Source: Sipunculus nudus
Lineage: Eukaryota; Annelida; Sipuncula; Golfingiida; Sipunculidae
DNA: 64,000 nt
Direction of reading: 5' to 3'
NCBI GenBank assembly: GCA_026874595.1
Contig: CM049307.1
Coordinates: 63,916,870 to 63,980,869 of the forward strand
This document shows positions 3,043 through 35,370 of this stretch, in pieces. The notes under the pieces were generated by a model that was not told where the DNA came from, did no database searches, and was given only the letters and a program-made list of their open reading frames with translations. Numbering within the stretch: the stretch's first letter is position 1; the number at the start of each line of letters is the position of its first letter. The position numbers and the translations under genes were made by a program.

Positions 3043-3069
3043 GGTTATATATATATATATATATATATA
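3043..3069. repeat. (TA)n microsatellite
   Basis: Uninterrupted AT/TA dinucleotides bordering the SINE-like tandem array on its left. A second (TA)n tract borders it on the right. Confidence 0.9.
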
Positions 3070-3930
3070 GAAAGATGTTGAATGGCCATGCTGGTCCATC
3101 TCATGGAGATAAAGAACAAGAATACACAGAAAAAGTCGGATCACCCCGTATGGGAATCGAACCCATGACCCTCCGATTGCCGGTTGTCTGCTCTACCACT
3201 GAGCTAACAGGGATCCCCAACTTCCTCTGTGTATCAGCACACTTTCATTGGAACCAGCGAAGTGACGTCACTACTGTGACTGGTATTATACATACTATGT
3301 GTCGACACGGCGACTTTGCATGTTGCAGTGATAAACTGATGGCCTTTTATGGTGTGCATCAAATATTATATAGAAAGATGTTGAAAGGCCATGCTGGTCC
3401 ATCTCATGGAGATATAGAACAAGAATACACAGAAAAAGTTGGATCACCCCATATGGGAATCGAACCCATGACCCTCTGATTGCCGGTCGTCTGCTCTACC
3501 ACTAGGCTCACAGGGATCCCCAACTTCCTCTGTGTATCAGCACACTTTCATTGGAACCAGCGAAGTGACGTCACTACTGTGACTGGTATTATACATACTA
3601 CATGTGTCGACACGGCGACTTTGCATGTTGCAGTGATAAACTGATGGCCTTTTATGGTGTGCATCAAATATTATATAGAAAGATGTTGAAAGGCCATGCT
3701 GGTCCATCTCATGGAGATATAGAACAAGAATACACAGAAAAAGTTGGATCACCCCATATGGGAATCGAACCCATGACCCTCTGATTGCCGGTCGTCTGCT
3801 CTAACACTAGGCTAACAGGGATCCCCAACTTCCTCTGTGTATCAGCACACTTTCATTGGAACCAGCGAAGTGACGTCACTACTGTGACTGGTATTATACA
3901 TACTACATGTGTCGACACGGCGACTTTGCA
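3068..3930 (-). repeat. tRNA-derived SINE-like unit in tandem, 3 copies of ~304 bp
   Basis: Units begin at 3068, 3371 and 3676 (TAGAAAGATGTTGAA). On the minus strand each carries a tRNA-like head with an A box (TAGCTCAGTGGTAGAGC in copy 1) and a B box (GGTTCGATTCC), spaced as in a tRNA. The heads lie near 3144-3213, 3447-3517 and 3752-3822. The acceptor and T stems can largely fold in copy 1, but the anticodon arm does not, so this is not a functional tRNA. The A box degrades in copies 2 and 3 (TAGTGG lost or altered). The body after the head is ~75 bp and leads into (TA)n. Tandem amplification of the whole unit with its flank is unusual for a SINE. Confidence 0.7.
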
Positions 3931-3982
3931 TGTAAATGGTTAAGTGCATGTAAATTGGACAGAATTAAGACGACTGCTTAAG

Positions 3983-7803: not shown

Positions 7804-7812
7804 GATGATTGC
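7804..7812. repeat. Left target-site duplication GATGATTGC of the foldback element
   Basis: Identical to 21138-21146 on the same strand. The preceding base (T, 7803) also matches 21137, while the next outward base differs, so the repeat is 9-10 bp. Confidence 0.8.
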
Positions 7813-8213
7813 ACGTCAAGGAAATTCATAGCGTATTCGATATTCGAGGTTCGAGATTCAGATCCATAATACTCCCCCATTGCTCCAAAAGCCTCTATCT
7901 TTCCGTGCCCTCCAAACGGGGATTCCCAGCCTCATCAAGGGTTATCGTGAAACGGAGCAAGGCATCCTTCTTCAGAATAATACAGAGCAGTTATCAGAGC
8001 AGCACAAACGGCCGTTTTAGAGCAGCAGCCAACCATATCTTGGTCCAAATCGCATATATCTATCGATATTTACGGCCTCCTTTCTGTGACGAATGCCATG
8101 TACCGGCAGACTATATATCGTTTTTTTTTTGTTTTTTTTTTTATCTCCGTATGTTTGGTATCAACTTTCACCACATGTGCACGCCCTTCGTTTTCCAACC
8201 CGATAATAATTAG
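7813..8213 (+). repeat. Outer unique domain of the left inverted arm
   Basis: Pairs along its length with 20721-21137 in reverse complement, with scattered substitutions and small indels, notably in the T-rich tract near 8120. It already contains one copy of the satellite box (GCACAAACGGCCGTTTTAG, 8004-8022), which links the terminal domain to the tandem part. Confidence 0.8.
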
Positions 8214-11200
8214 AGCGGCACAAACGACCGTTTCAGAGCAGACCTCCAATTTGATATTCGCCGAAAATAGGGCACAAATCGCTGCTTTAACGGCCCACAG
8301 AGCCAAACTATCGTTTTTTTAAGGTCACCTTGCATACCATTCGATACCTCGCCCCCCCCCGCCTTTACATCCAATAAGATCCAATATAACGCCAATCTTC
8401 CCATAGAAGCCAGAATAACACACACCTCGCTATTCTGACCGCCGCAGGCCCGCAAACTATCGTTTTCCAACGCCATGTTGGGTATCAAGTCAAAGCCCAC
8501 ACCCCTGGCTGTCCGGCCCAATAATTATTCGAGCGGCACAAAAAGCCGTTTTAGAGCAGAGTCCCGCCATTATATCGAAAAGGCCATAAACATTGGGAAC
8601 ATCGCTTATACGGCTCCCACGGGTCACAACCATCGTTTTTTCAAGGTCGTCTTTCCCACCGGTCGACAGCCTGACCACTCCGCCCTCACGCCCCATGATA
8701 ATTAGAGCGGCACAAACGGCCGTTTCAGAGCAGGCCTCCATTTTGATATTCGCCGATAATAGGGCACAAATCGCTGCTTTGACGGCCCCCAGAGCCAAAC
8801 TATCATTTTTTCAAGGTCACCTGGCATACCATTCGATACCTCGCCCATCCCGCCTTCACATCCAATAATATCTAGAGCGGCACAAAGAGCCGTTTTCAGA
8901 GCAGTGCGCCATTTGGATATTCGCCAATATTCCCATAGATGCAAGAATGACACACACCTTGCTATTCTGACCGCCGCAGGCCCGCAAACTATCGTTTTTC
9001 CGGCGCCATGCTGGGTATCAAGTCAAAGCTAACATGCCTGGCTATCCGGCCCAATAATTATTAGAGCGGCACAAAAAGCCGTTTTAGAGCAGCGGCCCGC
9101 CATTATCTCAAAAAGGCCAAAAACATTGGGAACATCGCTTACACGGCCCCCCACCGATCACAACCATCGTTTTTTCAAGGTCGTCTTTCCCACCGATCGA
9201 CAGCCCGTCCACTCCGCCCTCACGACCCATGATAATCTGAGCGGCACAAACGGCCGTTTCAGAGCAGGCCTCCATTTTGATATTCGCCGAAAATAGGGCA
9301 CAAATCGCTGCTTTGACGGCCCCCAGAGCCAAACTATCGTTTTTTCAAGGTCACCTTGCATACCATTCGATACCTCGCCTATCCCGCCTTCACATCCAAT
9401 AATAACTAGAGCGGCACAAAGAGCCGTTTCAGAGCAGTGCGCCATTTGGATATTCGCCAATATTCCCATAGAAGCCAGAATAACACACACCTCGCTATTC
9501 TGACCGCCGCAGGCCCGCAAACTATCGTTTTTCCGACGCCATGTTGGGAATCAAGTCAAAGCCCACACCCCTGGCTGTCCGGCCCAATAATTATTAGAAC
9601 GGCACAAAAAGCTGTTTTAGAGCAGCGGCCCGCCATTATCTCGAAAAGGCCATAAACATTGGGAACATCGCTTACACGGCCCCCCACCGATCACAACCAT
9701 CGTTTTTTCGAGGTCGTCTTTCCCACCGATCGACAGCCCGTCCACTCCGCCCTCACGACCCATGATAATCTGAGCGGCACAAACGGCCGTTTCAGAGCAG
9801 GCCTCCCTTTTGATATTCGCCAAAAATAGGGCACAAATCGCTGCTTTGACGGCCCCCAGAGCCAAACTATCGTTTTTTCAAGGCCACCTTGCATACCATT
9901 CGATACCTCGCCCATCCCGCCTTCACATCAAATAATAACTAGAGCGGCACAAAGAGCCGTTTCAGAGCAGTGCGCCATTTGGATATTCGCCAATCTTCCC
10001 ATAGAAGCCAGAATAACACACACCTCGCTATTCTGACCGCCGCAGGCCCGCAAACTATCGTTTTTCCGACGCCATGTTGGGAATCAAGTCAAAGCCCACA
10101 CCCCTGGCTGTCCGGCCCAATAATTATTAGAGCGGCACAAAAAGCCGTTTTAGAGCAGCGGCCCGCCATTATCTCAAAAAGGCCAAAAACATTGGGAACA
10201 TCGCTTACACGGCCCCCCACCGATCACAACCATCGTTTTTTCAAGGTCGTCTTTCCCACCGATCGACAGCCCGTCCACTCCGCCCTCACGACCCATGATA
10301 ATCTGAGCGGCACAAACGGCCGTTTCAGAGCAGGCCTCCATTTTGATATTCGCCGAAAATAGGGCACAAATCGCTGCTTTGACGGCCCCCAGAGCCAAAC
10401 TATCGTTTTTTCAAGGTCACCTTGCATACCATTCGATACCTCGCCTATCCCGCCTTCACATCCAATAATAACTAGAGCGGCACAAAGAGCCGTTTCAGAG
10501 CAGTGCGCCATTTGGATATTCGCCAATATTCCCATAGAAGCCAGAATAACACACACCTCGCTATTCTGACCGCCGCAGGCCCGCAAACTATAGTTTTTTC
10601 GACGCCATGTTGGCTATCAAGTCAAAGCCCACATCTCTGGCTGTCCAGCCCAATAATTATTAGAGCGGCACAAAAACCCGTTTTCGAGCAGCTTCCCGCA
10701 ATTATCTAGAAAAGGCCAAAAATATTGGGAACATCGCTTATACGGCCCCCCACGGGTCACCATCATCGTTTTTTCAAGATCGTCTTTCCCAACGATCGAC
10801 AGCCCGTCCACTCCGCCCTCACATCCCATTATAATTAGAGCGGCACAAACGGCCGTTTCAAAGCAGGAATCCATTTTGATATTCGCCGAAAATAGAGCAA
10901 AAATCGATGCTTTAACGGCCCCTAGAGCCAAACTATCGTTTTTTTCAAGGTCACCTTGCATACCATTTGATACCTCGCCCATACCGCCTTCCCATCCAAT
11001 AATAACTAGAGCGGCACAAAGAGCCATTTCAGAGCAGTGCGCCATTTTGATATTCGCCAATCTTCCTAGAGAAGCCAGAAAAACACAGACCTCGCTATTC
11101 TGACCGCCGCAGGCCCGCAAACTATCGATTTTTCGACGCCATGTTGGCTATCAAGTCAAAGCCCACACGTCTTCGTGTTCAGCCCAATAATTATTAGAGC

Positions 11201-13223
11201 GGCACAAAAAGCCGTTTTAGAGCAAAGGCCTGCAATTATCTAGAAAAGGCCAAAAATATTGGGAACATCGCTTTTACGGCCCCCCACGGGTCACAATCAT
11301 CGTTTTTTCAAGGTCGTCTTTCCCACCGATCGACAGCACGTCCACTCCTTCCTCACAACCCATGAAAATTAGAGCGGCACAAACGGCCGTTTCAGAGCAG
11401 GCCTCCATTTTGATATTCGCCGAAAATAGGGCAAAATTCGCTGCTTTAACGGCCCCCAGAGCTAAACTATCTTTTTTCAAGGTCACCTTGCATACCATTT
11501 GATACCTCGCCCATCCTGCCTTCACATCCAATAATAACTAGAGCGGCACAACGAGCCATTTCAGAGCAGTGCGCCATTTTGATATTCGCAAATATTCAAA
11601 TAGAAGCCAAAAAAACACAACTCAATATTCTGACCGCCGCAGGCCCGCAAACTATCGTTTTTTCGACGCCATGTTGGCTATCAAGTCAAAGCCCACACGT
11701 CTTGCTGTCCAGCCCAGTAATTATTAGAGCGGCACAAAAAGCCGTTTTCGAGCAGCGGCCCGCAATTATCTAGAAAAGGCCAAAAATATTGGGAACATCG
11801 CTTATACGGCCCCCTTCGGGTCACAACAATCATTTTTTCAAGGTCGTCTTTCCCACCGATCGACAGCACGTCCACTCCACCCTCACATCCCATGATAATT
11901 AGAGCGGCACAAAGAGCCGTTTCAGAGCAGTGCGCCATTTTGATATTCGCCAATCTTCCCATAGAAGCCAGAAAAACACATTCCTCGCTATTCTGACCGC
12001 CGCAGGCCCGCAAACTATCGTTTTTTCGACGCCATGTTGGCTATCAAGTCAAAGCTCACACATCTGGCTATCCAGCCCAATAATTATTAGAGCGGCACTA
12101 AAAGCCGTTTTAGAGCATCGGCCCGCAATTATCTAGAAAAGGCCAAAAATATTGGGAACATCGCTTATACGCCCCCCCCCCCCCCCCCCCACGGGTCACC
12201 ATCATCGTTTTTTCAAGGTCGTCTTTCCCAACGATCGACAGCCCGTCCACTCCGCCCTCACATCCTATTATAATAAGAGCGGCACAAACGGCCGTTTCAA
12301 AGCAGGAATCCATTTTGATATTCGTCGAAAATAGGGCACAAATCGATGCTTTAACGGCCCCCAGAGCCAAACTATCGTTTCTTCAAGGTCACCTTGTATT
12401 CCAATTGATACCTCACCCACCCCGCCTTCACATCCAATAATAACTAGAGCGGCACAAAGAGCCGTTTCAGAGCAGTGCGCCATTTGAATATTCGTCAATC
12501 TTCCCATAGAAGCCAGAAAAACACACTCCTCGCTATTCTGACCGCCGCAGGCCCGCTAACTATCCTAACTATAGTTTTTTCGACCCCATGTTGGCTATCA
12601 AGTCAAAGCCCGCACCTCTGGATGTCTGGCCCAATCATAATTAGAGCGGCACAAAAAGCCGTTTTCGAGCAGCGGCCCGCCATTATCTAGACGAGGCAAA
12701 AAATATTGGGAACATCGCTTATACGGCCCCCACGGGTCAGAACCATCGTTTTTTCAAGGTCTTCTTTCCCACCGATCGACAGCCCGTCCACCCCGCCCTC
12801 ACATCCCATGATAATAAGAGCGGCACAAACGGCCGTTTCAGAGCAGGAATCCATTTTGATATTCGCCGAAAATAGGGCACAAATCACTGCTTTAACGGCC
12901 CCCAGAGCCAAACTATCGTTTTTTCAAGGTCACCTTGCATACCATTCGATACCTCGCCCATACCGCCTTCCCATCCAATAATAACTAGAGCGGCACAAAG
13001 AGTCGTTTCAGAGCAGTGTGCCATTTGGATATTCGCCTATCTTTCCATAGGAGCCAGAATAACACACACCTCGCTATTCACAGGCCCGCTAACTATCGTT
13101 TTTTCGACGCCATGTTGGGTATCAAGTCAAAGCCCACACGCCTGGCTGTCCGGCCCAATAATTATTTGAGCGGCACAAAAAGGCGGTTTAGAACAACGGC
13201 CCGCCATTATCTCGAAAAGGCCA
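8214..13223 (+). repeat. Satellite array of the left arm: ~533-bp trimeric units, about 9 copies
   Basis: Each ~533-bp unit has three related monomers of about 175, 171 and 187 bp. Each monomer opens with a box of the form GAGCGGCACAAA-nn-GCCGTTT-n-AGAGCAG. Downstream sequence differs between monomers and defines types 1-3 in fixed order. Neighbouring units alternate, so the best match is at 1066 bp (9158-9520 equals 10224-10586 in translation). Units past 10592 are more diverged, and some lack a monomer (near 8380 and 11900). Reading frames of up to 167 codons cross it but match nothing. Confidence 0.9.
8390..10591 (+). repeat. Left half of a 2.2-kb near-identical palindrome within the arms
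   Basis: Every position x here pairs with 28356-x (17765-19966) with no length change. All frames in the two blocks match in mirrored coordinates, and I saw only a few substitutions (e.g. near 8471 and 8943). Outside these limits, at 8389 and 10592, the match drops sharply. Confidence 0.85.
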
Positions 13224-13760
13224 TTTTTCCATGTACGTCTATATTCATCAGCCTATACCAAAGAAGACTAAGCGATATTCGGTCGAACGCTTTGCTGAAG
13301 TCGACAAATAAACATTAGCACAGACCTTTTTGTCTTGTAAAATACTTATGCACAACACTGTATAATGAAAATATATTATCTATTTCACTTCGGTTTTGTC
13401 TGTATCCTGCTTGTTCTTCATAAAATCTGTGATTTTCTTCTGCCATTTTAACAAGGCGATTATTTAAAATTCCTGTTAATATTTTTGAAGTAACACCCAG
13501 TAAGGATATACCTCTAAACTTATTCACATCTGAATATGACCCTCCTTTATTCAATAGTACCAACACAGCATTTTAAAGGAAATGATCCTTTAGCCGTAAA
13601 ACAATTATACATTTTCTTCAATGCCCGAACTAATGAATTAGTGCCATTTTATACAGTTCAACGACCACACTATCAATGCCAGGTGCTATACCACTGTTTT
13701 ATGATTTTATACTGTTAACAATTTCTTCAGTTGTTAAAGGGATAAGATAGTTATTCTGTT
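13224..13760 (-). pseudogene. Non-LTR retrotransposon (LINE) reverse transcriptase fragment
   Basis: Minus-strand frames give the middle part of a LINE reverse transcriptase. In order: 'APGIDSVVVELYKM' (13640-13690), 'NKGGSYSDVNKFRGISLLG' with 'EEQAGYRQNRSEID' (13340-13560), and 'LFVDFSKAFDRIS', which carries the first catalytic Asp region (13270-13312). A TAA at ~13313 interrupts the frame just before that motif, and further stops and shifts lie above 13566. The fragment ends abruptly at 13223 against the satellite, before the YADD-type motif, so its 3' half is gone. The clade is not decided. Confidence 0.85.
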
Positions 13761-14182
13761 CATTTATTTAATATTATTCATAAGTTATTAATGCAAGTGT
13801 ATTCCTATAAGCTGTATTGATTTAAATTTGGAAAAAAAGTTGCAACTACTTGCTTGTTTTACATGGTTTTAATACTATTAAATTTACTCAACTGTATATT
13901 ATAATGATCACTTTATTTATAAAATTTAACGTTCTATTTTTCTGAACACATAACTTTTCGCGGTTACAAAGAGATTCAAAACATACACACGTTTCAGATT
14001 CTTATTTTTTCATACTTTAAATGTAGAGCCTATTCTCACATTTTTAACATTATTTATGCTTTAATATTCCACGTGCATTAGTTATGTTTTTCTCTTCTCA
14101 TCTGTACATATATCACGTTTGTTGTATTTGTATCAGTTATCACTAGTTCTACATTTATTCATTCCGTTGCTTGTATTGATTT
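13761..14182. other. AT-rich spacer in the foldback centre
   Basis: Lies between the LINE fragment and the NADAR remnant. No domain seen in any frame; the N-terminal part of the NADAR frame could not be found here. Confidence 0.5.
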
Positions 14183-15055
14183 TTGGGCTATAAGAAAATG
14201 GCAAAACTCATTTTGACGACGGACAATCCAAACATTCAAATAGAACTTGGACGACGAGTGAGGAATTTTGACGAAGGAACATTGAATGTCCACCAGATCG
14301 AAGTTGTTGAAAAGGGCAACATGGCCAAGGTGAGAACTAGCTCAACTGCAGTCATGGAGTGCTACAGCGATAACAATAAGGACACATGGAAAATAACCTG
14401 TGCATATAACATACAAAGTTCTGACTGTTTTATTTTTTATTCTTTTGTTATGTGTATATGAACATCACGAGATCATAAATATAAATATAAATATATCTGG
14501 TTTATACAAATAAAGATTATACATAGGAGATGTCTATATTTTCTTAACTCACAACAATTAGAATGTAAGTCTATACAGATAAAGTGGGTCAATTAATCGT
14601 TATACATGTTTATTGATGATCAGTATATATATATTCTTTACCCAAACAACTCATAAAAAAGTAGCTATTCTACACTGACAAGACAAAAACGGATAAAGTG
14701 GGCCGGATATGTTTGTATGATGTTTCAAATTGCACCCGGTGAGTTAAAACTGGAAAACAATTTGACACCTGCAAAAACGAAAATCGATAGCTCTTCTTGT
14801 AATCATCTAGAGACACAGCACATTTTCACAATTGCTCAATACCTTTTCATGTGTCTTTTCCATTTATTTCAGTTTTCACAGAATCAAGACTTTGGGAGAT
14901 TTCCTCCTGTGGACAGGCAGAGCAAGACTAGTCCAGGCCTCTCCCTTCGATAGGAAATGGGGAGTTGTCCTCGACATGAGGGATGTGAGGGCTTTGTACC
15001 CACTGCAGTGGAAGGGGAAAAACATGTAAGGGAAGGTTTTGATTTATTTGTGAGA
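14183..15055 (+). pseudogene. NADAR-domain (YbiA-like) gene remnant with one intron, in the centre of the foldback element
   Basis: Exon A (to 14329) encodes 'LILTTDNPNIQIELGRRV', 'NFDEGTLNVHQIE' and 'VEKGNMAK', ending at a GT donor (GTGAGA). Exon B starts after TTTATTTCAG (14872) with FSQNQDF, then continues as 'FLLWTGRARLVQASPFDRKW' and 'ALYPLQWKGKNM'. This is the order of conserved NADAR blocks (LGR-V-FD; GN-KF-QN; TG--LVEASP-D--WG; W-G-N-LGK). NADAR proteins are N-glycosidases linked to NAD/ADP-ribose and riboflavin-intermediate metabolism. It is broken: a +1 shift near 14895, a TAA in place of the Leu before 'GKVL' (15028-15030), and no N-terminal part of the domain. The splice sites look sound, so the original copy was a spliced gene, not a processed cDNA. 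Confidence 0.75.
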
Positions 15056-16261
15056 GGGTCAGTAGAAAAAAAGGCAGATAGCAAGAACGCATAAGAATTT
15101 CCACAGCGTTCCACATGGTTCAATATCGTAAATGGTGCCATGTCGTTTGGATGATATATGTAAACATGTATAGATTTCGTGTATATATCGTGACATCTCT
15201 TGTATATAATTATATATATTGTACATAATATGATCATGTATGTTTTTTTAAATAAATAATGTCCTCACTTTTTTTTGTTTCTTTCAAATTTTTGTGAATG
15301 TTATCATCAGTAATGATCTGATGAGACATTAGACAATTATCCTCATGTCGATCGTTCACCCATTGACTGACCTTAACCCGTTTTATTTATATTTATTAAT
15401 CTTCTCATCAAAATGTGTTAAGGACAAAATGTGACAAAATGTGTATTTATTAGAAACATGTTCCTAATGCCTTGAGGTTGAAAACATTCGAAAACGATGG
15501 GTCAGTGTAACCGACTGTATTCGAGCAGAGTACGTTGTAAAAAAATTACAACAAAATTCCTGAAAATCAAATTCAGTTGAAACAGTGTTGATCTGCCGTC
15601 CATGTACAGAATCACTGAACCGTGCCGCTACTCTTAAGCAAGATGTTCTGTTGTAAAAGTTATCACAAAAACAATAACCATGGCACTTTTTTTATACTGT
15701 AAGTACATTTGATCTAATTTTCACAGCATGTACACATACACATTTAATGTGTTAAATTCTTAAGTTTGAAAGCATGAGTATTGAAGTCCTCGGGTCGCCA
15801 AGGCCTTCCTGTCACAGGTGTACAGTCATTCTCATGTGCCACCCTCCCCCCTCCCCCATTAAGTCTTTGCAATACTTGTTATTGTTATCGTTAAATATAG
15901 TTCTTTATTAGTTAAGCTGTTTCAAATGCAATGTACACACCTTTTTAAAAAAAAATTATACAGGAGTAAACCAGAAGATGCCATGTTGTGCTTATATAGC
16001 AAATAGCAAAATAAATTAATTTTAAATTAATACTAAATAATTTATAAAAATATATTTAACCTATTAGTAAGCAAAATTTGATAATAAAAGACCGAATTCG
16101 TGGATAAATTAGAAATTTTAAATTCTGAACAATATGCTATTTTTAGACACATTGGTTTGCAAATTAGAAAATATATATCCTCGTTTCAGTCCAGCAATCA
16201 CGTTCGCTGATTTATTAATTGACCTGTTGATCACGCACTCGCCGTCAGGTCAATTATTATT
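15056..16261. other. AT-rich part of the foldback centre, right of the NADAR remnant
   Basis: No gene recognised. About 15680-15780 resembles a short piece of the Helentron-like unit ('TTTTCACAGCATGTACACATA'; compare 43780-43810), so it includes an old repeat fragment. A C-rich tract is at 15841-15860. Confidence 0.45.
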
Positions 16262-19200
16262 GTATGTAAGGGCGGAGTGGACGGGCTGTCGATCGGTCGA
16301 TCGGCGGTATGGGCGAGGTATCAAAAGGTATGAAAGGTGAATTTGAAAAAACGATAGTTTGGCTCTGGGGGCCGTTAAAGCATCGATTTGTGCCTTATTT
16401 TCGGCGAATAGCAAGATGGAGGCCTGCTCTGAAACGGCCGTTTGTGCCGCTCGAATTATCATGGGGCGTGAGGGCGGAGTGGACAGGCTGTCGATCGGTG
16501 GGAAAGACGACCTTGAAAAAAAGATGGTTGTGACCCGTGGGGGGGCCGTATAAGCGATGTTCCCAATGTTTTTGGCCTTTTCGATATAATGGTGGGCCTC
16601 TGCTCTAAAACGGCTTTTTGTGCCGCTCGAATAATTATTGGGCCGGACAGCCAGGGGAGTGGGCTTTGACTTGATACCCAACATGGCGTCGGAAAAACGA
16701 TAGTTAGCGGGCCTGCGGCGGTCAGGATAACGAGGTGTGTGTTTTTCTTGCTTTTATAGGAAGATTGGCGAATATCAAAATGGCGCACTGCTCTGAAACG
16801 GCTCTTTGTGCCGCTCTAGTTCTTATTGGATGGTAAGGCGGTATGGGCGAGGTATCAAATAGTATGCAAGATGACCTTGAAAAAACTATAGTTTGGCTCT
16901 AGGGGCCGTTAAAGCAGCGATTTGTGCCCTATTTTCGACGAATATCAAAATGGAGGCCTGCTCTGAAACGGCCGTTTGTGCCGCTCTAATTATCATGGGA
17001 TGTGAGGGCGGAGTAGACGGGCTGTCAATCGGTGGGAAAGACGACCTTGAAAAAACGATGGTTGTGACATGTGGAAGCCGTATAAGCGATGTTCCCAATG
17101 TTTTTGGCCTTTTCGAGATAATGGCGGGCCGCTGCTCTAAAACAGCTTTTTGTGCCGTTCTAATAATTATTGGGCCGGACAGCCAGGGGTGTGGGCTTTG
17201 ACTTGATTCCCAACATGGCGTCGGAAAAACGATAGTTTGCGGGCCTGCGGCGGTCAGAATAGCGAGGTGTGTGTTATTCTGGCTTCTATGGGAAGATTGG
17301 CGAATATCCAAATGGCGCACTGCTCTGAAACGGCTCTTTGTGCCGCTCTAGTTATTATTTGATGTGAAGGCGGGATGGGCGAGGTATCGAATGGTATGCA
17401 AGGTGGCCTTGAAAAAACGATAGTTTGGCTCTGGGGGCCGTCAAAGCAGCGATTTGTGCCCTATTTTTGGCGAATATCAAAAGGGAGGCCTGCTCTGAAA
17501 CGGCCGTTTGTGCCGCTCAGATTATCATGGGTCGTGAGGGCGGAGTGGACGGGCTGTCGATCGGTGGGAAAGACGACCTCGAAAAAACGATGGTTGTGAT
17601 CGGTGGGGGGCCGTGTAAGCGATGTTCCCAATGTTTATGGCCTTTTCGAGATAATGGCGGGCCGCTGCTCTAAAACAGCTTTTTGTGCCGTTCTAATAAT
17701 TATTGGGCCGGACAGCCAGGGGTGTGGGCTTTGACTTGATTCCCAACATGGCGTCGGAAAAACGATAGTTTGCGGGCCTGCGGCGGTCAGAATAGCGAGG
17801 TGTGTGTTATTCTGGCTTCTATGGGAATATTGGCGAATATCCAAATGGCGCACTGCTCTGAAACGGCTCTTTGTGCCGCTCTAGTTATTATTGGATGTGA
17901 AGGCGGGATAGGCGAGGTATCGAATGGTATGCAAGGTGACCTTGAAAAAACGATAGTTTGGCTCTGGGGGCCGTCAAAGCAGCGATTTGTGCCCTATTTT
18001 CGGCGAATATCAAAATGGAGGCCTGCTCTGAAACGGCCGTTTGTGCCGCTCAGATTATCATGGGTCGTGAGGGCGGAGTGGACGGGCTGTCGATCGGTGG
18101 GAAAGACGACCTTGAAAAAACGATGGTTGTGATCGGTGGGGGGCCGTGTAAGCGATGTTCCCAATGTTTTTGGCCTTTTTGAGATAATGGCGGGCCGCTG
18201 CTCTAAAACGGCTTTTTGTGCCGCTCTAATAATTATTGGGCCGGACAGCCAGGGGTGTGGGCTTTGACTTGATTCCCAACATGGCGTCGGAAAAACGATA
18301 GTTTGCGGGCCTGCGGCGGTCAGAATAGCGAGGTGTGTGTTATTCTGGCTTCTATGGGAAGATTGGCGAATATCCAAATGGCGCACTGCTCTGAAACGGC
18401 TCTTTGTGCCGCTCTAGTTATTATTTGATGTGAAGGCGGGATGGGCGAGGTATCGAATGGTATGCAAGGTGGCCTTGAAAAAACGATAGTTTGGCTCTGG
18501 GGGCCGTCAAAGCAGCGATTTGTGCCCTATTTTTGGCGAATATCAAAAGGGAGGCCTGCTCTGAAACGGCCGTTTGTGCCGCTCAGATTATCATGGGTCG
18601 TGAGGGCGGAGTGGACGGGCTGTCGATCGGTGGGAAAGACGACCTCGAAAAAACGATGGTTGTGATCGGTGGGGGGCCGTGTAAGCGATGTTCCCAATGT
18701 TTATGGCCTTTTCGAGATAATGGCGGGCCGCTGCTCTAAAACAGCTTTTTGTGCCGTTCTAATAATTATTGGGCCGGACAGCCAGGGGTGTGGGCTTTGA
18801 CTTGATTCCCAACATGGCGTCGGAAAAACGATAGTTTGCGGGCCTGCGGCGGTCAGAATAGCGAGGTGTGTGTTATTCTGGCTTCTATGGGAATATTGGC
18901 GAATATCCAAATGGCGCACTGCTCTGAAACGGCTCTTTGTGCCGCTCTAGTTATTATTGGATGTGAAGGCGGGATAGGCGAGGTATCGAATGGTATGCAA
19001 GGTGACCTTGAAAAAACGATAGTTTGGCTCTGGGGGCCGTCAAAGCAGCGATTTGTGCCCTATTTTCGGCGAATATCAAAATGGAGGCCTGCTCTGAAAC
19101 GGCCGTTTGTGCCGCTCAGATTATCATGGGTCGTGAGGGCGGAGTGGACGGGCTGTCGATCGGTGGGAAAGACGACCTTGAAAAAACGATGGTTGTGATC

Positions 19201-20720
19201 GGTGGGGGGCCGTGTAAGCGATGTTCCCAATGTTTTTGGCCTTTTTGAGATAATGGCGGGCTGCTGCTCTAAAACGGCTTTTTGTGCCGCTCTAATAATT
19301 ATTGGGCCGGATAGCCAGGCATGTTAGCTTTGACTTGATACCCAGCATGGCGCCGGAAAAACGATAGTTTGCGGGCCTGCGGCGGTCAGAATAGCAAGGT
19401 GTGTGTCATTCTGGCATCTATGGGAATATTGGCGAATATCCAAATGGCGCACTGCTCTGAAAACGGCTCTTTGTGCCGCTCTAGATATTATTGGATGTGA
19501 AGGCGGGATGGGCGAGGTATCGAATGGTATGCCAGGTGACCTTGAAAAAATGATAGTTTGGCTCTGGGGGCCGTCAAAGCAGCGATTTGTGCCCTATTAT
19601 CGGCGAATATCAAAATGGAGGCCTGCTCTGAAACGGCCGTTTGTGCCGCTCTAATTATCATGGGGCGTGAGGGCGGAGTGGTCAGGCTGTCGACCGGTGG
19701 GAAAGACGACCTTGAAAAAACGATGGTTGTGACCCGTGGGAGCCGTATAAGCGATGTTCCCAATGTTTATGGCCTTTTCGATATAATGGCGGGACTCTGC
19801 TCTAAAACGGCTTTTTGTGCCGCTCGAATAATTATTGGGCCGGACAGCCAGGGGTGTGGGCTTTGACTTGATACCCAACATGGCGTCGGAAAACGATAGT
19901 TTGCGGGCCTGCGGCGGTCAGAATAGCGAGGTGTGTGTTATTCTGGCTTCTATGGGAAGATTGGCGAATATCCAAATGGCGCACTGCTCTGAAACGGCTC
20001 TTTGTGCCGCTCTAGTTATTATTGGATGTGAAGGCGGGATGGGCGAGGTATCGAATGGTATGCAAGGTGACCTTGAAAAAACGATAGTTTGGCTCTGGGG
20101 GCCGTCAAGGCAGCGATTTGTGCCCTATTTTCGGCGAATATAAAAAATGGAGGCCTGCTCTGAAACGGCCGTTTGGGCCGCTCTAATTATCATGGGACGT
20201 GAATGCGGAGTGGACGGGCTGTCGATCGGTGGGAAAGACGACCTTGAAAAAACGATGGTTGTGACCGGTGAGGGGCCGTATAAGCGATGTTCCCAATATT
20301 TTTGGCCTTTTTTTCGAGATAATGGCGGGCCGCTGCTCTAAAACGGCTTTTTGTGCCGCTCTAATAATTAATGGGCCGCACAGCCAGGGGTGTGGGCTTT
20401 GACTTGATACCCAACATGGCGTCGAAAAAACGATATTTTTCGGGCCTGCGGCGGTCAGAATAGGGAGGTGTGTGTTATTTTGGCTTCTATGGGCAGATTG
20501 GCGAATATCCAAATGGCACAATGCTCTGAAACGGCTCTTTGTGCCGCTTTTGTTATTATTGGATGTTAAGGCGGTATAGGCGAGGTATGGAATGGTATGC
20601 AAGGTGACCTTGAAAAAATGATAGTTTGGCTCTGTGGGCCGTCAAAGCAGCGATTTGTGCCCTACTTTCGGCGAATATCAAAATGGAGGCCTGTTCTTAA
20701 ATGGCCGTTTGTGCCACTCT
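16262..20720 (-). repeat. Satellite array of the right arm: ~533-bp trimeric units, about 8 copies, inverted
   Basis: Same unit and box as the left arm in opposite orientation. It also shows the 1066-bp higher-order period: the blocks at 17425-18132 and 18491-19198 encode identical frames. The inner end (16262-16900) and outer end (20144-20720) are more diverged than the middle, a pattern expected when a central part has been homogenised recently. Confidence 0.9.
17765..19966 (-). repeat. Right half of the 2.2-kb near-identical palindrome
   Basis: Mirror of 8390-10591 about the axis at 14178. The much higher identity than in the flanking array suggests recent conversion between arms, or an assembly effect. 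Confidence 0.85.
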
Positions 20721-21137
20721 AATCATTATCTGGAAAAACGAAGGGCGTGTGGTTAAAGTTGATACCCAACATGACGGTGAGAAAAAAAACGATATAGTCT
20801 GCCGGTACATGACGGTGAGAAAAAAAAAACGATATAGTCTGCCGGTACATGGCATTCGTCACAGAAAGGAGGCCGTAAATATCGATAGATATATGCGAAT
20901 TGGACCAAGATATGCTTGGCTGCTGCTCTAAAACGGCCGTTTGTGCTGCTCTGATAACTGCTCTGTAAAATTCTGAAGAAGGATGTGGCTTGCTCCGTTT
21001 AACGGTAACCCTTGATGAGGCTGGGAATCCCCGTTTAGAGGGCATGGAAAGATAGAGGCTTTTGGAGCAATAGGGGAGTATTCTGAATCTGAATCTCGAA
21101 CCTCGAATGTCGAATACGCTATGAATTTCCTTGACGT
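20721..21137 (-). repeat. Outer unique domain of the right inverted arm
   Basis: Reverse complement of the left terminal domain. A ~45-bp segment (a poly-A run followed by CGATATAGTCTGCCGGTACA) is tandemly duplicated here at about 20785-20850 but single on the left, a local change after the arms formed. Confidence 0.8.
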
Positions 21138-21146
21138 GATGATTGC
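21138..21146. repeat. Right target-site duplication GATGATTGC of the foldback element
   Basis: Direct copy of 7804-7812, directly after the terminal CCTTGACGT. The base after it (G) differs from the base after the left copy. Confidence 0.8.
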
Positions 21147-21277: not shown

Positions 21278-21645
21278 GGGTGTATCTAAAACCCAGAGAT
21301 CTCCCGCCTGAGATCAAAATAAAACCCGGAGATCGCGATATCTTAATTAATAAGGCAGCAATTTGTATTAAACCTTCCCCTTGACACTTCTAAATGACAT
21401 CCGCATCGAATATGATACTTAATTTGCAAGTGCACAAAGTAATTATTCAGTTATCCACGGAAACCTCACCCGGAGATGACCCGGAGATCGTCCGGAGACC
21501 GCCATCTTGCCCGGAGATCCACCAATGAGTGCTTCCCACTGATTCCCACTCGCCACAACAGATGCCGCCACATACATGTCTGACTCCCGCTCTGATATGT
21601 TATATCGTTTACGAGTCTAGTTGATTGGAACTGTCACTAAAATAC
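21278..21645 (+). repeat. Left terminal inverted repeat of the MULE-like element
   Basis: Matches the right TIR over its full length with few changes. It contains several CCGGAGAT motifs (about 21325, 21472, 21481 and 21513, plus close variants), likely repeated protein-binding sites. Homology ends at CTGTCACTAAAATA. Confidence 0.85.
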
Positions 21646-22129
21646 CTATAGCTTCTAACTAGAATATTAATTCATATAAATTTTATTTTCCGATATTAAC
21701 AATATTAAAAAAAATGATAATAATATATTGATATGTTATTGATATGTATTTGATACGATATTGATATATATATATATATATATATTTATATATTAAAATA
21801 AACTGTTTTAATAAACTTATTATATTTACCTGTATATAATAAAAAAATTATATTATTAAGTATTATTATTATTTATGTTTATCAATTTATTTATTTATTA
21901 TTTACCTGCCTCATAGCCGCATTATTTGTTTTTACTTTAAAATAATTGCATTACAGTTTATTTAGTGGACCGCTGCATTCCAGCTCTGGGAAAACAGGGT
22001 ATCCAGTTAGAAAATGGTGTTTTGGGTAATTGCCATTCAAGCACATAAAGTTTACCTGCCTCATAGTCGCGTAATTTGTTTTAACTTTATAATAATTGCA
22101 TTAGGTTCTCTGTATTTCTGCTCTGGGAA
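21646..22129. other. AT-rich spacer between left TIR and gene remnant
   Basis: Very AT-rich, with a short (TA)n tract at 21769-21785. Two copies of a ~50-bp segment ('TTTACCTGCCTCATAG..GC' then AATTTGTTTT-type sequence) occur at ~21901 and ~22050. No coding content. Confidence 0.5.
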
Positions 22130-23752
22130 TGCATATTCATTGTTTGCAGAGGGTACATGTAAAGACATAATCCTCCGATATATCTTCAGGTTCATTTGCA
22201 CAAATATTATGCCACCATATATCACACATTGAACATGTTATCATATTTCCATAAAAATAGTCAGGATATTTGCATGCACAGTGTAATTCTATCCCATGGT
22301 GCACATGTTTAACCTTGACAGGACGTTTTTGCTGAATTTTTGAAAACGGTGTGAATTTTTTTTGCTCTAAATGGGTTCTCATATTAATCATATAACCAGT
22401 AAAATTTTATCATTTAACCAACTGTTCAGCCTCTTGTTGGAAAATTCAACCGCATTTGCGATCGCATATACCCCACAGTCTGAGTTATTATTCTGTAACA
22501 TGGCATTCACTACCGGAACGTAATTAAGATTGCTCCAAGTTGTAGATTCGGCAAAGCTGTATTTCTGTTGAAGAAGTAAGACTCTTTGCATGCAGCACCA
22601 CCCAAACAATCTATTACAAACAGACCCCTTTCATCCGGTCGGACCGATATAAGCCAATGTGAATGTCCAGTGAAATGTATTTGTACACACGGGCCTTTTC
22701 GAGAACCTATATTTTTAAAACCTGTTTCAGGCACGAACCATTTGTTTTGTTCATCACTGAGGCAAGGTGTTAGTGTAGTATCTTGGAATCCGATGATTTC
22801 TGGATATTGTTTTTGTAAAATTATTTGCGCAGCACGGATATGCTTATCAGAAAGCCAAGAATCGTTTTCTATTTCTCTTTTGTTTTGAACTGTTAGTCCG
22901 AATTCATGCAGCCAATACCTGTCGGCAATTTATTCTGTTTTAGCGAGAGTCAATTTCTTATTATTTGTTTTTGTAGGTGTTATCTTCGGGGATTACTTTA
23001 CGAATATCGCTTATCGGGCGATTACATTCGTTAGAGGTCACACAATTTACCTTGGTTATTTTATTTGTGGTCTGTTTTGGGGTAGAGGATGCACTAATTT
23101 CAAAAGGTTGTGTATCGATAATGCTTTTGGGCATCCCTACTGGACTACAATTAGGAGTTGGAAGCGAGTATGAACTGTCGTCTTTATTTTTTAAATCAAG
23201 TCTAATTCTCACTCGTTTCTGTTCTGAATTTTTCAAAATTGATTTCGGTGATTTTTTAACTGTAACTTTATTTAATGGTGTTTTATCTGGGGTAGCTTGT
23301 GTCTTAACTTTATCAACAGTACTCTGTTTTTTGTTTCGAAATGGGAACTGGGCCATCTATAGCTTGGGAGATTGCAGAGTTCTATCTCTAAGCGAGGTTA
23401 TCATGGAAACATCGGTATCGGGAGCAGCTTCAAATTCGTACACGAAATCTGATTTTCTCAGCTGTTTTCTACCCGTTTTTCTAGCCACCCTTTTCTTACT
23501 ACGCCGAGACATTATTGAAACATTTAGTTTGCGTTTTTGATTGATTACATCCATACCTATAGATTTCCTGGCTGCAAGAATATGGTAGCAAATATTTGTT
23601 GCTGCGCATTGACATTTTTCTTTTGGGAACAGAGTTATCGCAAATTTATTGTCATTGTTTCCCTCCACAATGAAAGTACCAAATTTCGCAACTAATTCTA
23701 TTTTCCCTTTATTGATTATATCTTGTGCCCTTTCAGTTTGTGTCAGGATCAA
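22130..23752 (-). pseudogene. Decayed SWIM zinc finger / Ulp1-like (C48) protease / PHD finger gene of the MULE-like element
   Basis: Reading down the minus strand: a SWIM zinc finger CxCx5CxH ('KCQCAATNICYHILAARK', about 23590-23640); a basic linker (to ~22960); a C48 cysteine-protease domain with 'WLSDKHIRAAQIILQKQYP' (~22800-22860), catalytic His in 'HWLISV', Asp in 'VIDCLGG' and Cys in 'NNNSDCGVYAIANA'; then a PHD finger with C-x-C, C-x2-C, H-x2-C and C-x2-C ligands (22137-22270). SWIM domains bind DNA or protein in Mutator transposases, and PHD fingers read histone tails. It is dead: adjacent stops near 22955-22960 and frame shifts near 22925, 22530-22590 and 22400. No transposase catalytic domain precedes it. 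Confidence 0.8.
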
Positions 23753-24169
23753 AGGATAATAGGATTACAGTACTTCAGATAGCTACAAGGGATTAATTTC
23801 CCTGCTGAGGTCTATTGGTCATCGCTGTCTGTACATAAACAATATTACTCCATAAATGAATTCGTTTGCCTTCAATGGTGCGCAACAGAAAAATAAATGA
23901 GTTTAATTAGTTTATTATTAAATAGTCAAATTGGCCATGTCTCTGGATGAGCCACACCGTTAATGAGGTTTGCCCATAATAACTGTGTACACAGTATGAC
24001 ACACCAGCACCTGCCTGAATGCCCAGGCGTGCTGGGAAGAGAATCCATAATTTTGTAATCAATTTACTTTGATGGGGGGATCCTCGCGCTGCCCTTTTTA
24101 TATAATTATGTTTCAAATCCGTTAAATTCTGGTCTTAGTGCCGAATAAATAAACCACAATTTTGACATA
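23753..24169. other. Spacer upstream of the SWIM/protease/PHD remnant
   Basis: No transposase motif seen in the frame expected to precede the SWIM domain. A 69-codon minus-strand frame (23907-24116) matches nothing I recognise. Confidence 0.4.
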
Positions 24170-27100
24170 GTTTTTAGGGAACCTGTGAGCTTATGCGATG
24201 GTGTGGCGTCGTCCGTCATCTGTACGTTAACCCATACTATCTTGAAAACACCACGAGGTGGCATCACGAAATTTTATTTAAAAAATTAGTCATCTAAAAA
24301 ACTATATCGGATTTTGCTTATTTTTTGACTAACTGCATTTTCTTAGATTTTATAGGGAAAAAGCAAAAAAAAAGCTTTAAAAATCTTCTTCTCCGAAACT
24401 GTTCAGCCAAATTGTCCAATATTTCACATAAATGATTCCTGGAATAATCTTTCTCAAGTTTGTTCGAATGGTTTAAGTTCGGTGATATTTGGCCGAGTTA
24501 CAGGAAGTTGAACTTAGTCATCTGTCCATAAAGCATACTAAAATTACAATCTCCGAAACGGCTGGAGCTATCATCAACAAATTTTATGCCAATGTTGTTA
24601 ACATGAGACATATCTGAAATTGAGGTATTGGTGGCGCCACCTGCACCAACCTATTTTGTATGGGGGTCATCAGTGCCCGTATCATACTGACAGCTACAAA
24701 AAACTTCTTCTCTGAAACCATATGGCCAAATAGTTTAATATCGCACAGAAATGATCCTAGGGTAGTGCTTTCTGCAATTTGTTCAAATGGTCTAAGTTCA
24801 GTGACTTTTGGCTGAGTTGTTGGAAGCTGAATTTAGTCATATGCTGTAACAGCCCATTTTAGCTCAGTGGCTACAAAGATCTTCTCCTCAAAAACCACTG
24901 GGCCAAATTCTTAAATCTCACACATTAATTATCCTTAGATATTGATAATTCAAGTTTGTTCAAATGGTTTTGGTTCAGTGATTTTTGGCTGAGTTATGGG
25001 AAGCTTAACTTAGCCATTTTGCTGTATTTTCCCATATGAGTTATAAACCTGTAAAAATTTATTTGACTGACCCTACTGAGGCCAATTTGTTTAATATTTT
25101 ACATGAATAATCCCCTGAATAATTCTTATAATAATTGTCTTTTATGGTTCCAAAGAATGAATTTTGGCTGAATTATAAAGGTTCAATTGAGTCATTTTAC
25201 CATATATGTTAGCTGTGTGAAGCAGATACACAGATACATCTAGATACATCTAGACTGGCACCAGTTTATCAGCATTTATTACATCATGCCTCTAGACATT
25301 TAGATTTCAGGTTATCTATGGTTAATATTGACAAGAATGTTTTTTAAAAGCTTTTAAAAAATGTAGATTTATGATTTTTAGATATTCCTCATGCCAGGCA
25401 ATGTTTACAATCACAGCTATACAGCTCTCTGTATAAAGACGGCTGTACATGGATTATAAATAATTGGTATCCATAGTCAAATTAATTCAAGATTTTGCCA
25501 TCAGTGAGATGTAGCTGTATCACAATTTTGCATTCAATATGCACCTGTATTAATTTTTAGTGAACCTGTGAACTAATGCGATGGTGTGGCGGCGTTTGTC
25601 TTCTGTACATTAACCCATACTATTTTGAAAATGATTGGAGCTAGCATCATGAAATTTAATGCAAAAAATTAGCCATCTGAAAATTTTCTTAAATTTATAG
25701 AGAAAAAGCTAAAAAAATCTTCTCCTCCGAAACACTCAAGCCAAATTGTTCAATATTTCACAGAGATAATCTTTTATACCATCTCCCTCAATTTTGTTCA
25801 GGAAGTTGAACTTAGTCATCTGTCCAAAAAAGCATACTAAAATGACAGTCTCAGAAACAGCCAGAGCTATCATCACCAAATTTTTTGCCAGTGTTGGTCA
25901 CATGAGTCATATATGAAATTCAGGTATTGGTGGCGCCACCTGAATTGACCTATTTTTGTACAGGGGTCATTGGTCAACTGTACATTAATCCATAATTTCT
26001 CAGGAATAGCAGGAGCTACCATTCCCAGATTTTATGCAATAATCTGTCACATATCAAATTTTGTCGGATTCAGCTTATTTTTTTGCTATCTGCATTTACA
26101 TTTTATAAGGAAAAAACTGACAATATTTTAAAAGTTGTCTGCTTGTAGACGGTCCAGCCAAAATGTTAAATATTTTACATAAATGATCCCAGAGGCAAGC
26201 CCTCTGAAGTTTGTTCAAATAGTTTGCATTTGATGAATTTTAGTGGAGTTGCACAAATTTGAAAAGTCATTCGGCCAAGTAAGCATACTGACATAGTACT
26301 CTCAGAAATGACAGAAGCTAGCATTACCAGGTATTGTGCAAATGTTGGTCACATGACTCATATTTGAAGTTGTAGATTTAGTGGTGCCACCTACATTGAC
26401 CTGTTTTTTATGGGCAAAAAACCTCATAATTTTAGCCTCTTTCAGCTTAATGATGAAACTGTCAAGTTGAATTGTTCAGTTTTTCAAAAGAATTATCCTA
26501 GGACATGGTACTTTTAATCATATCAGAATATACGGAGTTTGTTGATTTTTGGTTGAGTTGTGAAAAGCTTAAGTAGGTCTTATGGCCATTATTATGTGTT
26601 TTTCAAACTGAGGACTGCAATAGTGTTCTTCTACAAAATTATTATTTCAATTATATCTTCTGTAACATTGCACAAAAATTATTCTTAGGTGGCCTTTGTT
26701 CAAGTTTACTAGAATGATTTTTGGCAGAACTATTGGACCTTTAACAATGAAAGTACTGCATCTTTTATTATTCTAGATATTTTGATAAAAAGTTTATGAA
26801 TATGTCGGCTTGAAAAAAGAAATTTTAACCAAAGTCTTTCAGTATGTGTAAACAGATATACCAACAGGCCAAGATTGAATCTGTATCTTTAAATAGGTTG
26901 AGAAACTGCCAACTGTTTCAGATTTGGGAACAGATCAAGAGTTCATTCAGTGGAGCCAGATATAGGTCAAGAGTTCAATCAGTGCAGCCAAGCACATGGC
27001 ATGTGATCACCTCATGGGTGACATGTGAACACCTCAAGGGCACCATGTGATCACTTCATGGGTGTCAAGCCCCTCAGGGGAGGGCCCCTGCATGAGCTTA

Positions 27101-27872
27101 TGCAATGGTGTGGCTACTATTTCAGATTTGGCAACAGGCTTGAGGTCAGTCTGGATCTATTTATAGCTTTGGCAGACTGCCAACTGTATCAGATTAGGCA
27201 ACAGGTCAAGAGTTCACTCAGTGCAGCCAGGTATGGGTCAGGAGTTTACTCAGTGCAGTAGCTGCATTCTATTTATAGCTTTGGCAGACTGCCAACTGTG
27301 TCAGATTATGCAACAGGTCAAGAGTTCACTCAGTGCAGCCAGGTACAGGTCAAAAGTTCACTCAGTCTAGCCAGGTGCAGGTCATGAGTTCACTCAGTGC
27401 AGTAGTCTGAGCAAGCAATTTGTCACAGTTCACTCGGGGCAACAGCCTTTCTCATCTAAGCCTGGTCAGCCCCATGCATTAGACTCAAGGTAAGTTTGAT
27501 GTATTGGCCTAATATTTTGACCTGTCTATGTGTCTTTGATGGCTTTCTCACTCACAAGACAGGTGTCGCCACCTACCATGACTTTTGCACACGTTTTTCT
27601 CAGGAGGAGTTTGATATATCAGTCTGAAATTGGGCGTATGTATATATCTCTGATAGCTTCTTTGTATACAAGACTGGTGGTGCCAGCTACAATCTTTTTA
27701 GTGTTGTGTGCACCTATGCCAGAATTTCAGCAGTGATGTTTGTGTAATTGTTTCTTATTCAAAATGTTTAGTACTTGCATATTTCATATACATGAAAAGT
27801 AATGGTCCAGCATTTAAGCATTATACCTGGTGTATTTCGCAATGCACAGGTTCGCATTAGGCCTGTAGGCCT
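24170..27872 (+). mobile_element. Helentron-like element (GAACCTGTGAGC family), nested in the MULE-like element
   Basis: Starts GGGAACCTGTGAGCTTATGC and ends CACAGGTTCGC then ATTAGGCCTGTAGGCCTTGTT. The GAACCTGTG start and CACAGGTTC end are inverted, and the end has a small palindrome (AGGCCT-GT-AGGCCT) just before TTGTT. A second start-like sequence at 25558 shows duplication or nesting. The interior is degenerate tandem modules with GGTGGYGCCACC palindromes. No coding capacity. Short terminal inverted repeats, a subterminal hairpin, tandem internal repeats and no TSD fit non-autonomous Helentrons (HINE type). Confidence 0.55.
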
Positions 27873-28029
27873 TGTTATATGTTTTATAATTTCGATATTT
27901 CAATATTAAGTAAACCACATATTTGACATACTATTTTATATGTTCTATAATTTCGATATTTCCATATTTAATGCATGTACCCTTTATACCATTAAAAATT
28001 AAGGATATATTTTCACATATTTGTATTGG

Positions 28030-30333: not shown

Positions 30334-30490
30334 ATATAAAATTTATACATAAAGAAAATATTCTGTATGATATGCAAGAAAATATAATTAGTTATAAAAA
30401 TATTACAAACATTCTAGAGTTTTCGGAAATAGAAAATTGGTAAAGAGAATATATGATTAGTGTATTAAACAGTTATTTAAACAATATACA

Positions 30491-30859
30491 TATTTTAGTG
30501 ACAGTTCCAATCAATTAGACTCGTAAACGATATCACATATCAGAGCGGGGAATTAAGACAGGTATGTGGCAGCATCTGTTGTGGCGAGTGGGAATCAGTG
30601 GGAAGCACTCATTGGCGGATCTTCGGGCAAGATGGCGATCTCTGGACAATCTCCGGGTCATCTCCGGGTGAAGTTTCCGTGGATAACTGAATAAATACTT
30701 TGTGCACTTGCAAATTAAGTATCATATTCGATGCGGATGTCATTTAGAAGTGTCAAGGGTAAAGTTTAATACGAATTGCTGTCTTATTATTTAAGATATC
30801 GCGATCTCCGGGTTTTATTTTGATCTCTGGCCGGAGATCTCTGGGTTTTAGATACACCC
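30491..30859 (-). repeat. Right terminal inverted repeat of the MULE-like element
   Basis: Reverse complement of the left TIR, with the repeated motif appearing as ATCTCCGG. Several copies have point changes here (ATCTCTGG), so this side is a little more decayed. Confidence 0.85.
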
Positions 30860-34639: not shown

Positions 34640-34790
34640 CATAATATAAAAATGTTTGTAGGTGGTGCCACCAGTCTTGTGTATGAGAAAACCATCAAAG
34701 ATTTATGGACAATGTCCCCATGTCTGATGGACATGCAAAATTTCAGGCTGGTACGTCATGCCACCTACTCTTGAGCTATGTGCAAAGATG
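34640..34790 (-). repeat. Fragment of the GAACCTGTGAGC Helentron-like family, reverse orientation
   Basis: Contains GTAGGTGGTGCCACCAGTCT and the CATCAAAGATTTATGGAC segment, which are the reverse complement of modules such as 38340-38370. Too short to show ends. Confidence 0.45.
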
Positions 34791-35370
34791 CACCAGTTAA
34801 CCCCAAAAACAACTGGTTTGTGTGACTCCATCTCTTTCATGAAAACAATGATAAGAGCTGCTCTCACTCACTATAACCTGGTTGCACTGAATTCATACTA
34901 TATTGAACTGTGTGTATACAAAGTTTTAAATAATGCAATTGTTGTCTTTTTTCACATTAACTGTATAGGAAACATTTAAGGCAATAATAAAAATTATAAT
35001 TCAGTGGTAAAATTTTTGTACTGACTGGAGAACCTGACTCTGCTTGGTGACAGACTTTGACTGAGGGAAATATATCGCCACCTGTTGGCCAAATCTGTTA
35101 CAAACATTACCAACAGATTGACAGGCAGGAGAGAAATAAGTTTAGTATTCATTTATATATGTTACTCTTTTTTAATGTAAGTTAAAATTTTGTTGAAACA
35201 ATTAAAATATTCATGAATATCAAAGAATTAAGTTGATTTTCAGTGTTTTTGTCAATTTTTGGTAGTTTTCTGTGAATAGTCAGACTGTGGGTAAAACCTA
35301 TTTTACCCAACCTGGGTGTAACCCGGGTGGTGGGTAAAACCTGCAAACCCTGTTTCCTTGAGATACTTTT

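Follow-up and report, generated by a model that had tools for sequence, protein, structure and literature searches.

Foldback transposons have long inverted arms filled with tandem subrepeats and are flanked by target site duplications of ~9 bp. In Tetris of Drosophila virilis, an outer flanking domain is followed by ~220-bp tandem repeats in the inverted arms, and the tandem repeat has a 37-bp segment in common with the outer domain, at ~80% (PMC4079207). As described in that source, Tetris has a variable middle without protein-coding capacity, generates 8- to 10-bp duplications, and has no transposase that was found. Drosophila FB4 and Ssk-FB4 have long inverted repeats, 9- to 10-bp duplications, and a host gene between the arms (PMC8277862). 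That study, in the portion drawn on here, identified no Pack-MULE in its animal reference genomes and presented the Ssk-FB4 elements of flies as Pack-MULEs. We analyzed a 64,000-nucleotide stretch of a eukaryote-type genome (the window; contig CM049307.1 of GenBank assembly GCA_026874595.1, forward-strand positions 63,916,870 to 63,980,869) and found a 13,325-bp element at window positions 7813 to 21137. It resembles the fly foldback transposons, with larger and more elaborately repeated arms, and we do not claim a new category for it. Judged against these published descriptions, the closest match for its arms is Tetris, compared with which they are about three times as long, and the closest match for gene capture is Ssk-FB4.

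The inverted ends of the element are exact. The left end reads ACGTCAAGG from position 7813, and the right end reads CCTTGACGT to position 21137. Their first 28 bp match without error, as do 56 of the first 59 positions, and directly outside both ends is a perfect 9-bp direct repeat, GATGATTGC. The initial annotation of this DNA had proposed a 13.3-kb structure with exact mirrored ends and a direct repeat just beyond them, and our measurements bear out both. We also searched the window for end pairs of this kind, which had to share an exact 9-bp end seed, match at no fewer than 15 of 30 end positions, have a perfect 9-bp flanking repeat, span 150 bp to 20 kb, and not lie inside the element. 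Three pairs were found (27 to 29 of 30 end positions), and 30 order-1 Markov sequences of window length yielded one pair in total. Additional 9-mer matches, to CCTTGACGT at 42693 and to GATGATTGC at 45239, seem to be fortuitous; the 17 rows of an element-versus-window search include none that covers them. The mirrored outer domain, first put at ~400 bp, is present and slightly smaller, with the two copies aligning across ~345 to 370 bp. Of the first 298 aligned bases, 13 are mismatched; the following 90, an interval with many gaps, contain another 8.

The only positions of GATGATTGC in the window are 7804, 21138, and 45239, so it is absent from the inner edges of the arms. This bears on whether the locus is one mobile unit. 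Two satellite-bearing elements might instead have inserted independently, facing in opposite directions, around ordinary genomic DNA. The DNA between the arms does resemble ordinary host DNA, with a reverse transcriptase fragment, NADAR exons, and a dispersed repeat. However, the 9-bp repeat is at the outer ends of the pair, as from a single insertion, and the inner edges, where insertion of a lone arm should leave a copy of GATGATTGC, have none. Therefore, we consider two insertions to be very unlikely indeed.

Both arms consist of a ~350-bp outer domain followed by a tandem array, and they are unequal in length. The left arm extends from 7813 to ~13224 (5.4 kb) and the right arm from ~16303 to 21137 (4.8 kb). 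Mirrored satellite arms had been predicted at 4.5 to 5 kb, so their presence was correctly called and their sizes were slightly off. Aligned as inverted repeats, the arms are 90% and 94% identical in their two best registers. The arrays have a G+C content of ~50%, compared with 33% for the spacer between them and 37 to 38% for the DNA outside the element. Tandem Repeats Finder assigned a period of ~170 bp to positions 8628 to 13037 and 16765 to 20729. In fact, three monomers, A, B, and C, together form a repeat unit of 533 bp, because the spacing from one copy of a conserved box (described below) to the next is mostly ~175, 170, and 188 bp in turn, in both arms. There were 55 box positions (29 left and 26 right), and 52 intervals of 150 to 260 bp were retained as monomers for a tree and identity tables. 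These clustered mainly by position in the trimer and not by arm, except that several inner left-arm monomers also grouped together. Identity within classes averaged 93% for B, 92% for C, and 82% for A, and identity between classes was 55 to 67%. The low A average reflects the inclusion, under the A label, of two B-like monomers and of the copies from the outer domains; monomers L04 and R08 (188 bp) are A by box label and lie among B in the tree. Consensus sequences were built from 50 classed monomers (18 A, 15 B, and 17 C), using members within 6 bp of the modal length. Ten open reading frames (ORFs) in the arms, of up to 176 amino acids and two of them crossing an element end, had no Pfam match, and we took the arm ORFs to be noncoding.

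One tract is nearly identical between the arms. When a shift of 594 bp is applied, left-arm positions 8470 to 10591 differ from their right-arm partner on the other strand at 2 of 2,122 positions. The two neighboring blocks on its outer side, which include gaps, have 11 differences in 142 aligned bases and 5 in 108 (about 5 to 8%). Blocks on its inner side differ at 12 to 19 bases per ~150 (8 to 13%), and the last differs at 17 of 92, with 47 gap columns. If a flat difference of 9% or 4.4% is assumed, the probability of two or fewer mismatches is ~10^-83 or 10^-38, respectively (binomial over 2,123 bases). In addition, 1066 bp are tandemly duplicated in the right arm, 1037 bp of them exactly. 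The tract and the duplication may both be due to conversion or unequal exchange that took place recently between the arms; an assembly or polishing effect would account for them too. For the locus as a whole, a rival reading is an assembly artefact, either an inverted duplication of chimeric origin or a satellite array that was joined wrongly. Arrays of satellite DNA are difficult to assemble, and 2.1 kb of both arms is almost identical. However, outside the tract about 4 to 13% of aligned bases differ between the arms (18% in a single block with many gaps), and the arms also differ in length and unit number. In addition, a perfect 9-bp repeat lies at the outer ends. This suggests that an artefact of the whole structure is very unlikely. 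The initial annotation had the arms expanding like a centromeric satellite. The pattern fits, with a trimeric higher-order repeat and local homogenization, but nothing links it to centromeres or to arrays elsewhere.

The box is a 34-column segment common to the A, B, and C consensus sequences, with 29 of 34 columns invariant, versus 56 of 154 outside it. None of 20,000 column permutations gave an equally good window, a statistic that is tempered by its being built on consensus sequences, whose columns are not independent. The box recurs in both outer domains (33 bp, 91% to monomer A). Its exact pattern has 23 matches in the window (11 plus and 12 minus), every one inside the element. A perfect 12-bp palindrome, AAACGGCCGTTT, has 18 copies in the window, from 8006 to 20942, all within the element. 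It sits in the boxes of A type and also in those of both outer domains. That AAACGGCCGTTT might be a centromere-protein-type box is pure speculation. In viral, bacterial, and archaeal collections, which have little bearing on a eukaryote, there were no stretches matching the monomer box (genome contigs) or a degenerate box (viral and genome contigs), and none in viral contigs matching the exact pattern of the element ends. The presence of the box in both the monomers and the outer domains is most naturally explained if the array grew out of a subterminal segment important for transposition. The boxes probably serve as additional binding sites for the transposase, by analogy with Galileo, whose arm repeats carry secondary sites of this kind that bind the DNA-binding domain of its transposase (PMC3688188); here such a role is only proposed.

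Between the arms, the spacer contains part of a long interspersed nuclear element (LINE), with a match to Pfam RVT_1 (3.3e-5, 24.1 bits versus a cut-off of 29.6), followed by two exons with matches to NADAR. The NADAR profile matches adjoin, at 55 to 105 for the first exon (1.5e-6) and at 99 to 150 for the second (7.2e-8), and the splice signals between the exons are in matching phase. The appearance is that of an incomplete, disrupted copy of a gene that still has its intron. Because the intron is retained, the fragment would have been copied or trapped as DNA and not by way of mRNA. The element therefore has nontransposon sequence between its ends, as Pack-TIR elements and Pack-MULEs do. Several other Pfam matches below the cut-off were set aside as chance (CIMIP3, 3.6e-4; Sox17_18_mid, 0.0085; DUF5629, 0.015; DUF6834_C, 0.033; E7, 0.09; Tli3, 0.09). 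All features of the element are listed in Table 1.

Table 1. Features of the foldback-type element, in window coordinates
Feature	Position	Strand	Remarks
Left target site duplication GATGATTGC	7804..7812	.	Direct repeat outside end
Left outer domain (terminal inverted repeat)	7813..8160	+	Inverted alignment; one copy of conserved box at 7996
Left satellite arm	8160..13224	+	533-bp higher-order repeat of monomers A, B, and C (consensus 170, 188, and 175 bp as phased)
Near-identical tract, left	8470..10591	+	2,122 bp, sharp edges; putative interarm conversion
LINE-type reverse transcriptase fragment	13225..13990	-	Cut off at inner edge of left arm; RVT_1 match within 13315-13572, wider limits by eye from six frames
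NADAR exon, first	14180..14329	+	Ends at AAG/GTGAGA donor; 5' limit is open-frame start only
NADAR exon, second	14873..15029	+	After TTTCAG acceptor (14872); frame broken inside exon
Short dispersed repeat	15677..15772	.	Partial copies at 712-772, 1389-1442, 43745-43827, and 44424-44487
Right satellite arm	16303..20790	-	Same 533-bp trimeric repeat; monomer-like sequence may extend inward to ~16245 (by eye)
Near-identical tract, right partner	17765..19886	-	2 mismatches to the left tract on the other strand
Right outer domain (terminal inverted repeat)	20790..21137	-	Inverted alignment; box copy at 20923
Right target site duplication GATGATTGC	21138..21146	.	Direct repeat outside end

The inverted ends, 9-bp duplication, and arm anatomy provide good support for a foldback-type element with satellite arms. 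Its structure, the 9-bp duplication, and the lack of recognized coding capacity further suggest that it is nonautonomous. Therefore, it is very probably a nonautonomous foldback-type cut-and-paste DNA transposon, with Mutator as its most likely superfamily. Mutator target site duplications are mostly 9 bp, as here, and span 8 to 11 bp. Duplication length also brings the hAT, P/Galileo, and Merlin-like superfamilies into consideration. Many Mutator groups have been tabulated with 9-bp duplications (PMC6446971). Together with the precedents of Tetris, FB4, and Tm1, the duplication length points to Mutator, a provisional assignment. It is unlikely, to a lesser degree than the alternatives above, that the element belongs to another superfamily with a similar duplication length and has foldback arms by convergence. 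Such arms do arise in more than one superfamily; Galileo is a P element (PMC3573991, PMC3688188), and no transposase was found in the ORFs scanned that could decide. However, 9 bp fits Mutator and FB-type elements.

If the element is a Mutator-type foldback transposon, its outer domains would be its functional ends. A transposase supplied in trans would bind them and insert the element with a 9-bp duplication. The arms might have been lengthened by tandem amplification of a subterminal stretch containing the ~34-bp box, giving rise to the trimeric higher-order satellite. The mirrored arms would then exchange sequence, by conversion or unequal exchange, which would hold part of them identical. 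The spacer would be captured host DNA, made up of the LINE part and the two NADAR exons with their intron, acquired by copying or trapping at the DNA level as in Pack-TIR elements.

Several points weigh against this interpretation. No transposase domain was found by Pfam in 16 spacer and 10 arm ORFs, an incomplete scan because 38 spacer ORFs of at least 40 amino acids were listed. Therefore, the superfamily assignment rests on the 9-bp duplication and the structure. Both NADAR matches are under the Pfam cut-off (29.0 and 33.3 versus 35.1 bits). Among solved structures, the NADAR chain 8BAU was weak against both exons, with adjoining stretches (E of 0.75 and 0.59), and the first exon scored slightly better with an unrelated chain, general stress protein 26 (E of 0.49). 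The element-versus-window search revealed no match to the NADAR exons elsewhere in the window, and so no parental gene, which leaves capture as an inference. The same search found no other copy of the arms in the window, and everything said about mobility is drawn from one copy. The left outer domain, as single-stranded DNA, folds worse than shuffled sequences do (-27.2 versus a mean of -32.5 kcal/mol, with 88 of 100 shuffles folding as well or better), which gives no support for a structured end. Finally, the 2.1-kb identity could stem from assembly or polishing.

The element was not initially recognized as a described family, and the initial annotation mentioned neither Tetris nor what the spacer contains. 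A close structural parallel exists in Tetris, and elements of this kind are already described, with the arm size and trimeric order here exceeding what the cited accounts give for Tetris and Ssk-FB4. Like Tetris, it has an outer domain and inverted arms of tandem repeats, and a stretch of the outer domain (33 bp at 91% here) is also found in the repeat. Unlike Tetris, in which the reported arms are at most 1,735 bp and have one ~220-bp monomer, its arms are 4.8 to 5.4 kb with a three-monomer unit, and it has host gene exons in its middle; the likeness is one of structural description and not of sequence (PMC4079207). It shares with FB4 and Ssk-FB4 the long inverted repeats, the duplication length, and the host gene between the arms. 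However, the arms of FB4 are given as ~700 bp, and the same source describes the Ssk copies as potentially functional (PMC8277862), unlike the NADAR piece, which is incomplete and has a disrupted reading frame. Galileo has foldback-like arms, and one subfamily is reported to have ~210-bp tandem repeats that are unequal in number between the arms, but it belongs to the P superfamily, with 7-bp duplications and arms of up to ~1.26 kb (PMC3573991, PMC3688188). Tm1 of root-knot nematodes resembles the element in having composite foldback arms with internal repeats and 9-bp duplications, and according to the source one member contains the gene Cg-1. It differs in having arm motifs of ~14 bp and asymmetric 7-bp terminal motifs, and some of its members encode a putative transposase (PMC3169594). 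Rehavkus, as described, shares the 9-bp duplication and has tandem repeats close to one end (PMC6446971), whereas satellites fill both arms here. In the 26 ORFs of the element that were scanned, no PHD-finger transposase was seen, although a nonautonomous Rehavkus member would lack one anyway. Among the literature matches listed, which were mostly from outside subscription journals, there was no description of a transposon with higher-order-repeat arms.

This element is one example of a foldback element with host exons and one example of how a higher-order satellite may be built and homogenized inside a mobile element. Introns and LINE-type sequence point to a eukaryotic host, for which an invertebrate animal is a mere guess. 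If the host is an animal, the element would be another animal case of the Pack-MULE type alongside Ssk-FB4, as the latter is presented (PMC8277862). More speculatively, it is possible, although we hold the idea only tentatively, that the element is a mobile satellite nursery. The transposon would carry a higher-order-repeat satellite in both arms, homogenize it by pairing of its own mirrored arms, and be able to seed the unit at new sites. If so, higher-order structure arises within ~5 kb, without a centromere or megabase arrays. If more copies exist, comparing their arms would show how the higher-order repeat forms and whether conversion occurs between the arms of one copy.

A second candidate transposon (21278 to 30859; 9.6 kb) starts after 131 bp of sequence (from 21147). 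It has ~375-bp inverted ends that are 93.6% identical and start with GGGTGTATC, as well as a 9-bp repeat (AACTTAAAG), and its right end is preceded by a 280-bp tandem array. By eye, its ends are unlike those of the foldback element. On its minus strand there are a PHD-finger match (7.2e-4) and a weak C48 peptidase match (0.016), both below the cut-off, as well as a SWIM-like cysteine pattern seen by eye. Its layout recalls Rehavkus, as that element is described, more than the foldback element does (PMC6446971). No transposase domain was found in 8 plus 4 overlapping ORFs scanned, out of 72 listed. Because most of the 72 are unscanned, we do not propose this neighbor as the partner of the foldback element. 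A third candidate, at 34658 to 38376, is bounded by inverted ends, GTAGGTGGTGCCACC, that match at 27 of 30 positions, and its 9-bp repeat is AAAATGTTT. A motif similar to that of the third candidate, GGTGG..CCAC, was noticed by eye in tandem repeats at 28238 to 30190 and 47128 to 47406.

Two other tandem repeats were observed in the window. At 3059 to 3933 there are 2.9 copies of a 305-bp unit. It has Rfam tRNA matches on the minus strand at 3142 to 3213 and 3750 to 3821, and ARAGORN found no tRNA there; this is possibly a tRNA-derived repeat. At 47586 to 49109 is a 341-bp tandem array of 4.5 copies with 84% matches.

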